Assembly (NCBI RefSeq): GCF_032362555.1
Contig: NC_083506.1
Span: 5,193,501-5,257,500, forward strand
Length of the DNA stretch: 64,000 nt
Direction of reading: 5' to 3'
Origin: Amyelois transitella
Taxonomy: Eukaryota > Arthropoda > Insecta > Lepidoptera > Pyralidae
Positions 21,346 to 30,300 of this stretch are shown here, piece after piece. Position numbers and translations under genes: made by a program. The notes under the pieces were generated by a model that was not told the DNA's origin, did no database searches, and saw only the letters and a list, made by a program, of their open reading frames with translations. Position 1 is the first letter of the stretch. Every line of letters starts with the position of its first letter.

Positions 21346-24300
21346 ATGAATTTTTATGTTTGTCTTGGATTTATATTTTTCATTCTAGAATTATGTCAGG
21401 GATCTGGCACAGATATAGCCTTAGATGCAAAAGCCAGTTTGTTACACCGCATAGATAGCTTAAATCTTTTAATATATACATGTCTTCTTACTCTTACTGT
21501 GCTAACTATTTGGGTGTTTAAACATAGACGTGTGAGCTGGATCCACGAGACTGGATTGGCCGTAATATATGGTAAGATAACCGATTTTCTACCGTGTTTT
21601 TCTGAACAAGAACGAAGTACCTACATCATTATTTTTATTATTTTATCATGTGATTTTCAAGGCCAATTTGATGATACTCTTTTTGTTACAATCATACTTT
21701 GGTTTTCCTCTACTTTTTTGTTTTTACACTTATATTCAACTTTAACTTGCCGTGTGGTTCACACCACCAATAGAAAAAATAATAGGACCACTCCATCTCT
21801 TTCCCATGGATGTCGTAAAAGGCGACTGAGGGGTAGGCTTATAAACTTGGGATTCTTCTTTTAGGCGATGGGCTAGCAACCTGTCACTATTTGAATCTCA
21901 ATTCTATCTTAAAGCCGAATAGCTGAATGTGGCCTATTAGTCTTTACAAGACTGTTGGCTCTGCCTACCCCGCAAGGGATATCGACGTGATTATATGTAT
22001 GTATGTATGTATTCAACTTTAAAGAGAGAAATTGAATCATAAGAACATCTAATAGGGTAATTGCGCTGGTTTGGCGTCCAGTTCTACTTTTCGTCCATTT
22101 CACTTTTAAACGCATATAAAAAGAATATAAACACACCTATGCACGCATGTTGCAACTTGTCATGATCCTTCATACTTAAGCAACAGTTCTAACAATCACA
22201 AAATCCAATTTGTCAAGTGAAAACTTCGAAAAAATTAAACTCAGTGGCCGGCATGTGTTCGTGTTGCGTAGACGTCATTGCCGATACAAAAAAAATAGCT
22301 GGTGCAGGAACACTCCGTGGTGGGTTTTATGACTATTTCACATAGATTGGGTAATATTTTGGCATGTAAGGATATTTAAGAGTATAACTAACATTATGTT
22401 CAGGTTATTTTACAATGTTTTTGTAGTAATCTTAGTAAAAGTTTGCGGACCAATACTGACATGCCTATTTTACCAATTATTTGGTATCCGTCCACGTGGA
22501 CGGAAACTAAAACAGCAAGCTAAATATTTGGAATGTTCATTTTACTTTTTCAGACCTATAAAAAAATATGTGTTTTCTTTAGATATGAACTTTATTGGCT
22601 ATTTGACAAGATATTTAGTTAACGTCCAATAATTTCTCAGTATTGCTTGTTTAAAAAAATGTTTAAATGGCATGGACGAAAACTAAACAGCAATTTTTTT
22701 TGTATTAGTTTTCGTCCATAATAGTGTGGAATCTACTTCTAACACATTTTCTTGTTAATTCGTACAGGTATTTCTAGTAGGTACTAAACTATGAAATTAA
22801 TTGTTATAGATGGATTCGGGGAAATAAAAAAAGCAGGAAATCTACTGATGAAGAATAAATATTTTTGTTGATTAAATAAAAGATTATAAAGACAGTTTTT
22901 ATTTAACATTGCATTTTTACTCTTTTTTACATATTGGACGGAAACTAGATCACACCAGGGCGAAAACCAAATTTTTTGGACGAAAACTAGTGAAATCTGC
23001 CATTTAACATTTAATTATTTATATAAAAAACAATGTAGTTATAATTAAAAGTTTCTTTATTTTTATCAAAAATAGACTATATGAGGTATTTAAACAAATA
23101 TGAGCTATTTTAATTAGGATACTTTATCATATTATTTTTACGTCTGAAAGCTAGCAACTCCGCTAATTGGACGAAAACCAGCGCAATCACCCTACTTTCA
23201 ATTATAACTCCTTATTTAAACTATTAAAACATGAGTTACTTGTCTGTTAAATAGGTACTCAAATGTGTTAACAGGTCTTATAGTAGGGGCAATAATAAGA
23301 TATGCAGGCACGACAAACCAAGTCACTCACATTGATGTGCACCCAGCACCAGACACCAAGTACAACTTGTCAGTGCCACCTGACATGCTGCGGTTCCATT
23401 TCCCAGACAAGATCCAGATCGCATCTGGCGGTAAGTGAATTTATATTGTCAATTTTACAAGTAAATAAGTATTTTTTTCCCAATAACTATTACACAATAA
23501 CAATCCCGATTGGGATAAGTCCACCATTGTACATATTTTTCTTAGATGATACACTTTACTAGATTGCTGAGGTACCTATCCTAAAATTAACCATTAAGTA
23601 CTCAATTTTACCATGATAACTTATTATGAATAGAAGGTAATTTTTTCCTTTAGCATTAGATTGTATCTATATTGTGCAAAATCAAATGTTATATTTACTA
23701 AATGAAATAAAAGTCTCAAGAAAACAAGAAACATAACCCAAGTGTGTTACCTACATACCTTACTTATTTATGAAAACTGACAAATATAACATAATGTTTC
23801 AAGTACAATCTACCATGGTACCTAACAACTATTTTTAACACTAATAAATAATTAGCTCACATTCATCATCTCAAATAACTTGTTTATTTTTTCAGAGGTT
23901 CCCATACCAAATAAAACCTATGCTTACAGCTTTAGGGGTGAGATAGTGAATGTGGAACAAAATGAAATAGATCTTAAAGCCACATTTGACCCAGAAATTT
24001 TCTTCAATATAATTTTACCTCCAATTATCTTTCATGCGGGGTATTGCTTGAAAAGGGTAAGTTTATTCATACCACTGATCATTGAATAAAACAAACTTTT
24101 AAAAATTTAGTGTACTTTAATTGTTTTCCCTTTTTTTTTCCAGAAATATTTCTTTCGTAACCTTGGTGCAATATTAACATTTGCAATGGTGGGCACAGCT
24201 TTATCGGCGTTAGTTATTGGATCTCTGATGTATGGCTGTGTGCAGTTGATGCCAGCTTCCTTGGCCTCCAGCTTCACATTTCTGGACACTCTGTACTTCG

Positions 24301-27300
24301 GTGCTCTCATCTCGCCAACTGATCCACTCACAGTATTAGCTATATTTTCCCAGTTAAAGGTAAGTTTTTGTTTCTCAGAAAATATCAGCACACAAAGCAA
24401 ATGAATAATCAGTCTAAAAGTAAGTTGTTTCTAAAATTGTAATTGGATTGCTTTTGCATTTATTTATCTTCTTCGGAATAAGGAAAATATTATCTATTTA
24501 CACATTTACACATTCTTATTACATTGATTTTAAATTTGTCAAATAAGTTTCGTTATCTTATCTAAAATCAGGGTAATTAAACTCATAAATTAAAGTAAAA
24601 AATATTAAGTAACCAAGAAAGCATACAACAATAATTATTCGGTATTGTACAAATGTTTAATTAGGTCACATTTACAACAAATAAAATATAACTAGGCATT
24701 AATTTTATTCTATTGGACATGAACTTGAACAGATAGACTTAACCTTCTGTACTATTTTAATGTTGTTTCTCAGACTATTATAATCCTGTCAATAATTAAA
24801 TTACATATTATCAGTACTATGAAACCACACTCATATAATAAAATGTATTGTTTTATCAATTGGTTCGTTTTCAGGTTGATGTTAATTTGTACGCCATGAT
24901 TTTCGGCGAGAGCGTTCTCAATGATGCTGTAGCATTAGTACTTAGCGGGTAAGATTTTTTTTTTTAATACATACAAACAGATAATCGCGTCTTATATTTA
25001 TTTACGGAGTAAATAGAGCCAAAAGTCTAGCATAAGCTGTGTGGCTTTATTATAAAATCGAGATCCAATTCATGTAAAAAAAATATTCTGTCCCACTTCA
25101 TTTCATGTGTTTGTTAACAATGAGGATAAATAGTAATGGTTGTATTAATTTAAAGTATTAATTAAATCAATACGTATTTATAACATTGCGAATGATAATT
25201 TGTATGTCAACGAGGACACCGAAATCCGGACAAATACAAATAGCTGTACCTATCGAACAAATACATTTTTAGATAATATACTCATCTAAAGATTGTTGTC
25301 ATTGGACAGTGATTTGACACTTTTCCAGCAAATTGTTTCATAGTTTTCATATGAATCATGACCGCGCTAAACATTACGCAATGACTACAAAATAACATGG
25401 ACCAGGCATGGCTAAAAAGTCACCTCAAATAATTTATAATGAATACATACATACAATCACGTTTAAATCTTGAAAAGACTGAAAGGCCACATTCAGCTGT
25501 TTGGTTTAAGAATACTAGTGTCAGGTTGCCCGGTCAGCCCATCGCCTACAAGAAGAATTCCAAGTTTATTAGCCTTTCCGTTAATTACTCTTAACATATG
25601 GAGCAGTCCCATTCTTAAATGTCGGGAAACACACGGCAATATTTTTTGACTTTAAATTTTGGAATATAAAAAGGGGTTCCTTTTTGTAGAATTCCGTACG
25701 TTTTCTCTTTTATATTCTTAACCTTAAGAAAGTTGAAACGATTGAATGGATATTCCACAACTCAGATTTAAGAAAGAACTATTGACATATCTAGTGCCTA
25801 ACACAAATATTATTTTTATTCCAGTGCTATACAAAATTACGAAAAACGGTACTCTAACGATGGTGGCTTTGAAATAACTGCTTTCTTGGCAGCCATTGGT
25901 GACTTCATCGGGATTTTCAGTCTCTCGCTACTTATCGGCGCTTTGATGGGCTGTCTGACAGCATTGATATCCTTTTAAGAAGTATAAAAATAGCTCAGTC
26001 ACATAATGCCAGGATTGCAATATCAAATGTGCTTTCATGTTAGGATAGATTAGATTTATTTTCAAAATTGGATACAAGGTAGGTATCACTTATTGACGTC
26101 AACATAACATTATATCCAAAGCGTATTTATTTTTAATATACATCGTGGACAAATGCACATTGTCCACATTAATGTTGTCGTCAGTGCCGGGCCGGCATTT
26201 CAAATTCAATTTCCTATCGAAAATAAGTTGATAAGATAATTGAAAAAACAAACAAGGAAACAAAATAAACGCCAGATATGCGACAACATACTGTCGTTAA
26301 GGAAATATTATCCAAAAATTGCCTGCCAGTAGGTATAGTGTCTCTTATTCGACTGCGGCACATCTAAAGAAAAAGGTCTAACACTAAACATCCCCCTTCT
26401 AGCGTTGTATCTGTTGCAACCTCGCCTTAATAGATACACGGGGTCTGCCTATAAACACAATCCTAGATTGGATAAGTCAAGTTTACACGAAGCGTCTCCC
26501 TTATTTTTTATTGACAGCCACGTCTGTGACACAGGAGGTCCAAGGTTCGAATCCCGGCCATGGCATGATAAGAAACGAACTTTCTCTGATGGGAATAGGT
26601 CTTGGATGTTTATGTTTATAAGTATTTATTATAAAATATAGTATCGTTGAGTTAGAATAGTAACACAAGACCGAACTTACTTGCTTCGAGGCTACCTCAA
26701 TCTGTGTAATCTGTCCCATATATATTTATATTCATGATACCACTGAACAATGCTGTGGCGACATTTCCATATTTTTTATCACTGATTGTTGTTGGTTGGA
26801 AGAGTGCAATATGTCCTTAACTGATATTCACATGACGAAGTTCACTCACGTGCGCGAATGGCCTCTGTTGGAGTCAGCGCTGTTTGTGCTCATGTCGTAC
26901 GCCGCTTTCCTGATAGCTGAAGTATGGGAATTAACAGGTAGATACGTTTTTATATAAGCTCTGAAATGAAATATATAAAATCATTCCTCTATCCCGAAGA
27001 GGTAGGAAGGGATTACATCATTCCACTTACCACGATACCTAGATAGTTCTCTCGTTTTATTCATTTTCATACTCTCTCTAAGCCGCTAGAGTTACGTCAA
27101 CACAAATAATAAGAGTATAAAGGTCATGGGAGCCCATAAGCCAATGCGTAGGGGTCTTGTCTACTGCAGAATCTGTGAAAATAATAGTCCTAATTTCTTG
27201 AAATAATTTATCGAATCCCCCAAATGGCAGTACATGTAGATAATATAAAATGTATCTCAGGTGTGTTGTCAATGCTACATACACCATAGTTTTATTTCAA

Positions 27301-30300
27301 CGGGAGTAAATAATATAATTTTTTAAGCAATGGTTTTGCCAAAAGTAAAGAGCTTATAAGATAGATTTCGTCCATGTAAAATTAAATACAGAATATTTTT
27401 TATGACACGACTATAAACATAAATTATCTCGCAAAATTATCCTTTTGTGACATGATTATAAACATAAATTGTCTTGGAAAAACCGCACTAGATAATAAAA
27501 ACGTGTTTAAAATATATCGATAGATAGCCACCTCCACTCATTCAAAGGTCATATCACTCTTTATCAATGAATCAACATAATTTAATCATATCTAGGTCGA
27601 AACAGAACCAGACGCACCAATGACTCAGTATCATTGATAGAAGTATGTATCAGGTTACGAGTTCCATTAAGTATTTTTACAAGTCTCGTAGTCTGAAGGG
27701 TCTATGTACATTAACCGTCTTTAAGAACTATTAATTGCATACTTACATACTCTATCGTCCGTTGGCGTTATTCCTTATAGCTTGTATTTTTATTCTTTGA
27801 ATCTCTTCAGCACATACATAAAAGTTACAATATAAACATAAGAAGGTACATAAACAAACCCAACTAATATTGTAAATGCGAAAGTTAGTTTATTTGTTTG
27901 TTTGTTACCACTTCACGGGTCTACTGAATTAATCTTCTTAAAAATTTTATAGATGGCGCAAAATTCTCGCGGAAGAAGCTGCGGGTAAAAGCTAGTAATG
28001 AAATAAAAAAGGATCATAAAATAGTTTATGATTTAATATTGTTTTACAGGCGTTGTGGCGGTGCTATTCTGCGGGATATGCCAAGCTCACTACACGTACA
28101 ACAACCTATCGTCGGACTCGCGCAACCGCACCAAGCAACTGTTCGAGTTGCTCAACTTTCTGGCGGAGAACTTCATATTCACATACATCGGCGTTTCAAT
28201 GTTCACCTTCCCAAAGCATCACTTCGATCCCTGGTTCATCATCGCCGGATTTGTATCCTTTTCTGTATTGAGCATTCATTTGCGCTCGAAAAATTATTTA
28301 TAAGTATTTTTTTCTTGCAAATTCATCGCTATACTGTTTTAAATAGGTGCCTGTTTTTAAAACTATTTATGATGTAAACAAATCAGAGTGGCATGAACAC
28401 TATGTCTAAAAAACACGTCTTTTCTCTCGCGGTATCAAATTGTTACCCTATCGCTTAATGAATAAAATCCCTAACGGACCTAAAAGCTTATCCCTTGTTT
28501 GACTTTTGAATTTCGCGTAAGATTATTAAAAAAAAGATTTCCTTAATCCCTGAATCAGGTGACTTCAACTCTCGGTCGGGCTGTGAACATTTATCCCTTA
28601 TCGTTCCTCTTAAATCTCGGACGAAAACCACCGATACCAATGAACTTCCAACACATGTTGTTTTTCTCTGGTAAGTAACACTGACTCGCCGAACTCCGTG
28701 ATAAATGACATTATCAGGAATTTTATTATTGTTGTGAATGGAGATGAAAACAAAATGTCCTCCAGTATAAAAAAGAGCTTATTTTCATATAGCAATAAAA
28801 ACTTTCTGGTACATTTTATCTCGCGGGGGCGACGAGTTTTTATGCCAGCTTTCATACAAAAGGAACAAATCTCTTTGCAATACCACCGCTTTCTGTCTTG
28901 AAAAATTTTTTGCTTTATAATAAAAATTTAAATATAAAAAATACTGTATTCAGGCCTCAGGGGAGCGATGTCGTTCGCCCTAGCTATTCGCAACACGGTA
29001 TCGGATGCCCGCCAAGCCATGTTGACAACCACGTCGCTCATCGTCATCGCCACGGTCGTCCTTCAAGGCGGCGCGGCGACACACGCGCTCGCTTATCTTC
29101 GTATACCCACCGGGTACGTAGCGGGCATCAATCCATAAAGAAAATATTTGTTTTTGTTTGTAACTCAAACACTACTATGCTTATATGAAATAAAAATTTA
29201 TGGTAGACATTGGCGAAACCTTCAAGAGTAACAAAGGCTACTTCTTCTAGTAATTCCCACTGAAGCGAAGCCCCCCGCAAAAGCTAGAATGCGAATACAT
29301 AAAATTACGCCTTTTTCCTGGCTAAGGGAAAGTTATAAATCAGAAGAAATCAGGCAGAATCTGTCAGATACTAAGTGATAACGTACAGCCTAAGCTACTG
29401 GTCGTGGGTAGGAGGAATTGACATTAAATGATTTATTTTTAGACAAGGACAAAACGACGAAAGCGACGCTCTGCCTTACCGCGACGTAAGAAGTGTAAGT
29501 ATTTTGTCATTTGCACATTACTGTTCTTTCTCATTTAATTTGCACTTTTACAGCTGTAGTAATTTTTACAATTAACTAGTAAAAAGTTTTCGAAATTTAA
29601 TCGAAATAATTTAAAAATATTAAATCGTGGTGGTGATAAATCACATTGTCTGTGTTGCTTTGTTTTACCCTATGTTATGTCTAAGCTAATATTATTTATA
29701 CTTTTGCTTAATTTCTCATTTAGATTTGATAAAATGCCGCTTATTTGACAAGCAGGCACTTCATCGTAAATACCAATCTGACCACAAGTAATTGCTCATT
29801 AGAATGTGCAAGTGATATTAGATATCATAACAAAATTTGCCTGCAACCATTAAATTCATACACACTGTTCGAACGAGTGTACCGACACCAAGAAGTGTTT
29901 GATTTGTAAATGAGAAGCTTAAGTTAGATTATTTACTAAATCAAGATGTAAATATAATTAACCCAATGTCATTCGTTCGGGTACAGTTGTTTGCATATAG
30001 AACTGCACAAAGTTAGGGAAAATGCTGCGCATGTAATTAATAACACATTGTTGTGGCAGCTGTACCAGGCCACGGACACTGGGGGATCGGTACGTACTGT
30101 ATAGACACGATAACGCACTATATGCCGCTTTATGTGTTAACTCATCACCCTTGACATCTTCATATATACAATTATTTTTTTGCTTTTGTAACTTTAAAAA
30201 TGGGAACTTTACAATTGAATATTTAAGTCCTTTTCATTTATCCAAAGCAGCTTTAAAATATCCATATGTTTTATGTTGGTGTCTTACCTGATAAAATACA

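Follow-up and report, generated by a model that had tools for sequence, protein, structure and literature searches.

How is a Na+/H+ exchanger gene spliced when its conserved reading frame continues across an interval that begins with AT and ends with AC? This question is raised by a locus in the 64,000-nt stretch of the Amyelois transitella genome analyzed here (the window), where the first-pass annotation had placed an AT-AC minor-spliceosome intron in a gene that it named NHE8. In our analysis the two parts of this reading fared differently: the assignment to the AT-AC minor class was upheld by the donor, the branch site, their spacing, the protein junction, the genome's snRNA genes and a comparable intron in a KCMF1-like gene, whereas the gene name was not.

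Our gene model spans positions 21346–29113 on the forward strand and comprises ten exons that encode a membrane domain of 518 codons; open frames up to about 32765, outside this model, are consistent with further 3′ exons. The predicted protein matched Pfam PF00999 over residues 52–510 of 518 (E 7e-65), and its best match of solved structure was NHE6 (559 bits), followed by NHE9 (485 bits), with NHE1 and NHE3 at about 160 bits each. The solved-structure comparison returned 28 matched sequences, none of them named NHE8, which was therefore compared separately using a sequence that covers part of NHE8 only; against this partial sequence identity was 35.3% (142 bits), compared with 55.9% (516 bits) for NHE6. 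Within the genome searched (327 Mb in 33 contigs), we also recovered an NHE8-like gene on another contig (C10, L001), in which a 258-residue stretch is 63.6% identical to the partial NHE8 sequence. Because NHE6 and NHE9 match best, NHE8 aligns at only 35% and a separate gene lies closer to NHE8, the window gene is by sequence of the NHE6/7/9 type (the human SLC9A6/7/9 group; Drosophila Nhe3), and the name NHE8 had to be abandoned. As a separate observation, intron 1 of this gene holds a DNA transposon-like segment of about 1.1 kb (22053–23194) between 20-nt inverted repeats that are 95% complementary.

U12-type introns of the AT-AC subtype carry a donor of the form A or G followed by TATCCTTT at the exon end, together with a TTCCTTRAC-like branch site close to the 3′ end. 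Both elements were found in the sixth intron of the gene model, an 865-nt interval at 25967–26831 on the forward strand, which lies between exon 6 (25825–25966, ending in phase 0 with MGCLTAL) and exon 7 (26832–26937, starting with MTKF). The donor ATATCCTTTT occupies 25967–25976, and the branch site TCCTTAAC occupies 26814–26821; within the stretch GTCCTTAAC, the second A lies 11 nt and the first A 12 nt upstream of the last intron base. The 3′ end reads GTCCTTAACTGATATTCAC and closes with TTCAC at 26831, such that AT and AC termini bound an interval whose removal restores the conserved frame. Joining the exons in phase 0 gives TAL/MTKF, and the alignment to NHE6 is ungapped over the join. 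Reading through into the intron instead yields 325 codons followed by ISF and a stop, ending the protein after codon 328. On these points the first-pass annotation was accurate: its coordinates, donor, branch site, 11-nt spacing and terminal AC agree with the sequence, the read-through stop was reproduced by translation, and the continuity of the protein that it had claimed is seen in the gapless phase-0 join. The intron also contains, at 26522–26620, a high-copy repeat that includes a tRNA B-box-like stretch; of 903 first-look candidates, 40 matches were scored, and 39 of these are further copies (87–90%).

Genes for the minor-spliceosome RNAs are present in the same genome, with U12 (99.1 bits), U11 (89.5 bits) and U4atac (78.6 bits) all above their Rfam gathering scores. 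U6atac was represented by two copies above the gathering score (76.3 and 74.9 bits) and by a third candidate below it (21.6 bits); the two copies (L011 and L012) lie on different contigs and are alike at 88 of 90 bases. The same minor snRNA search in 14 control genomes, those with names being prokaryotic by name, gave nothing above the cut-off. Three of these RNAs are complementary to the sites of the AT-AC intron. Nucleotides 2–9 of U11 pair with donor positions +3 to +10 through seven Watson–Crick pairs and one G-U pair, the AAAGGA of U6atac is complementary to the UCCUUU of the donor, and U12 AGUAAGGA forms eight pairs with the branch site, leaving one of its two As bulged. By comparison, only 3 of 9 donor positions agree with the U1 complement, whereas the seven ordinary donors in the model agree at 6–8 of 9. 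A search for CENATAC, which most A-type minor introns require in human cells (PMC8280824), gave no match to Pfam PF14968 in this genome and none in the control genomes either, a negative that is no sign of absence.

Short motifs of this kind recur by chance, and we gauged how often by generating 200 random strands under a first-order Markov model fitted to the window. Under loose rules, 79 of these strands, each 64 kb long, contained at least one donor–branch–terminus pair (mean 0.58 per strand), and the window itself holds four loose donor–branch pairs on the forward strand and none on the reverse. U12 motifs by themselves are therefore not rare; the strength of the case is their coincidence with the protein junction. 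With 91 slides allowed, U12-type motifs would fall at one given junction with a rough probability of about 4e-6.

This coincidence also bears on the possibility that the major (U2) spliceosome joins the exons at nearby GT-AG or GC-AG sites, which we consider highly improbable. Suitable combinations exist, since 18 GT-AG or GC-AG cuts whose two sites lie no more than 75 nt from the respective intron ends are in frame and free of stops; yet each of the 18 alters or deletes residues of the NHE6-aligned stretch, and the GT-donor option nearest in length falls six residues short with many others replaced. Among 91 shifted positions of the junction, three have allowed termini, none of them GT-AG. 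Only the AT-AC cut (k = 0) preserves the residues, and the two remaining cuts, which leave the length unchanged, are both GC-AG and exchange 8–9 residues. An AT-AC intron may in principle also be handled by the major spliceosome, as a member of the rare U2-type AT-AC class, because AT-AC termini alone leave the class undecided (PMC3584512, PMC2831892). For the present intron, such processing is scarcely plausible: donor position +5 is C, in contrast to the G described there for AT-AC introns of the U2 type in sodium channel genes, the resemblance of the donor to the U1 complement is poor, and both the donor and the branch site conform to the U12-type consensus, with complementarity to U11, U6atac and U12 of the same genome.

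A different account would have the intron mostly retained, or the transcript ending inside it, so that a truncated protein of 328 residues would be made in a regulated way. The in-frame stop after ISF and a single AATAAA within the intron, at 26264, are compatible with it. Against this stand the conserved open frame maintained in the downstream exons and the nature of the truncated product, which would be deprived of the later part of a transport domain whose Pfam match extends over nearly the whole modelled protein; we regard this account, too, as very unlikely. The preferred reading remains that of an AT-AC U12-type intron excised at 25967 and 26831.

A second U12-type intron, of the GT-AG subtype and absent from the first-pass annotation, was found two introns downstream of the AT-AC one, at 28253–28558 on the forward strand. 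It begins with GTATCCTTTT, contains TTCCTTAAT and interrupts the frame in phase 0, at AGF/VTS. Its branch site TCCTTAAT (28540–28547), in which the second A lies 12 nt upstream of the intron end, is complementary to U12 through seven Watson–Crick pairs and one G-U pair, and its donor likewise agrees with the U1 complement at 3 of 9 positions, where the seven ordinary donors reach 6–8. The protein alignment to NHE6 is ungapped at this junction too; over 91 shifts only two positions have allowed termini, and the alternative is a GC-AG cut that introduces a stop. A missing pyrimidine tract was dropped as a sign of the U12 type, as the two U12-type introns contain 11 and 12 pyrimidines of 17, and the seven others 7–17.

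The exchanger paralogues and two genes chosen as positive controls provide a genomic context for these introns. The AT-AC intron was present in one of the three exchanger genes compared, and the idea that it is common to the paralogues was rejected, given that the NHE8-like gene (L001) and a third exchanger (L005) are uninterrupted at the corresponding place. At the place of the GT-AG intron L001 is again uninterrupted, and L005 has no match covering it. Two further PF00999 places (L002 and L009) did not match the window protein and stand outside this comparison. The KCMF1-like gene served as a positive control and has an AT-AC-compatible intron after its third matched coding stretch, with a branch-like ACCTTAAC near the end that differs from the scan pattern by one mismatch. 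We also observed in this gene (L029:59-82, L029:658; C19 near 5156758) two candidate U12-type AT donors, ATATCATTTC and ATATCCTTTTT, 12 nt apart; the downstream one is the better match, and its use would lengthen the protein in frame by four residues (ISFL). PHB2, whose AT-AC intron is listed as conserved in fly and human, was negative as a control. Not every conserved AT-AC intron is kept in this genome, because the PHB2-like locus (L019, C14:7868319-7869203) consists of one uninterrupted open frame, 307 codons long.

An AT-AC U12-type intron is already known for this gene group in fly and human. In Drosophila, CG11328/Nhe3 has an AT-AC U12 intron as intron 5 of 12, with a U12 intron in human SLC9A7 (PMC2831892), and Nhe3 is counted elsewhere among the genes with U12-type introns (PMC2952598). 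In mutant studies, 65K-mutant flies are reported to retain minor introns and to have less mRNA for BuGZ, Phb2 and Nhe3 (PMC11304329), and Nhe3 protein to be reduced in miso mutants (PMC12084885). On the human side, patients with Roifman syndrome have lost nearly all correctly spliced transcripts of SLC9A9 (PMC4667643), and SLC9A6 is named among the minor-intron genes (PMC6865273); both belong to the same gene group as the window gene. Drosophila Nhe3 resembles the window gene in belonging to the NHE6/7/9 group and in having a U12-type intron of the AT-AC subtype, which is intron 5 of 12 in the fly and the sixth in our gene model, the positions being compared by number only. From these reports of minor introns in Nhe3, SLC9A7 and SLC9A9, the window gene is therefore a further case of a known kind. 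The unrelated KCMF1 (fly CG11984), with an AT-AC third intron in the fly (PMC2831892), shares an AT-AC-compatible intron with the KCMF1-like gene of this genome.

The GT-AG intron marks a difference from the fly. The list of 19 fly introns includes Nhe3 for its AT-AC intron only (PMC2831892), whereas the window gene adds the downstream U12-type intron at 28253–28558, which is outside that list. For the human genes, the passages that deal with minor introns make no statement on a GT-AG intron of this gene. Titles and opening abstract lines of the Lepidoptera literature on U12-type introns or the minor spliceosome likewise mention nothing on this gene, nor do the passages of PMC10639083 and PMC7367187 that contain the named terms. 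We lean toward a view in which the gene relies on the minor spliceosome twice, and in which the GT-AG intron may be ancestral, lost in flies and kept here.

Taken as a whole, the interval 25967–26831 is almost certainly an AT-AC U12-type intron of an NHE6/7/9-type gene, and its removal most likely falls to the minor spliceosome. In the proposed course of events, U11 and then U6atac would pair with AUAUCCUUUU at the donor, U12 would pair with UCCUUAAC and leave the branch A bulged, and the exons ending in TAL and starting with MTKF would be joined in phase 0; a transcript that kept the intron would be predicted to encode a protein stopping after codon 328. Full maturation would call on the minor spliceosome for the AT-AC intron and again for the GT-AG intron. 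The motifs, their spacing, the junction and the snRNA genes with their complementarity were observed directly; splicing itself and its efficiency are inferred, as is the descent that the intron may share with its fly and human counterparts. In flies, partial splicing of some classical U12-type introns, including Kcmf1-a, persisted after disruption of the minor spliceosome (PMC7644725), and for this reason membership in the sequence class is not proof of exclusive minor-spliceosome use.

The AT-AC intron leaves the established view of splicing unchanged. It offers a clean example of a minor intron that annotation rules based on GT-AG could misread, in a genome that has retained genes for each of the four RNAs of the minor spliceosome that were searched for. 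With two minor introns of different subtypes in one gene, the locus would also provide a natural comparison of AT-AC and GT-AG minor splicing within the same transcript.
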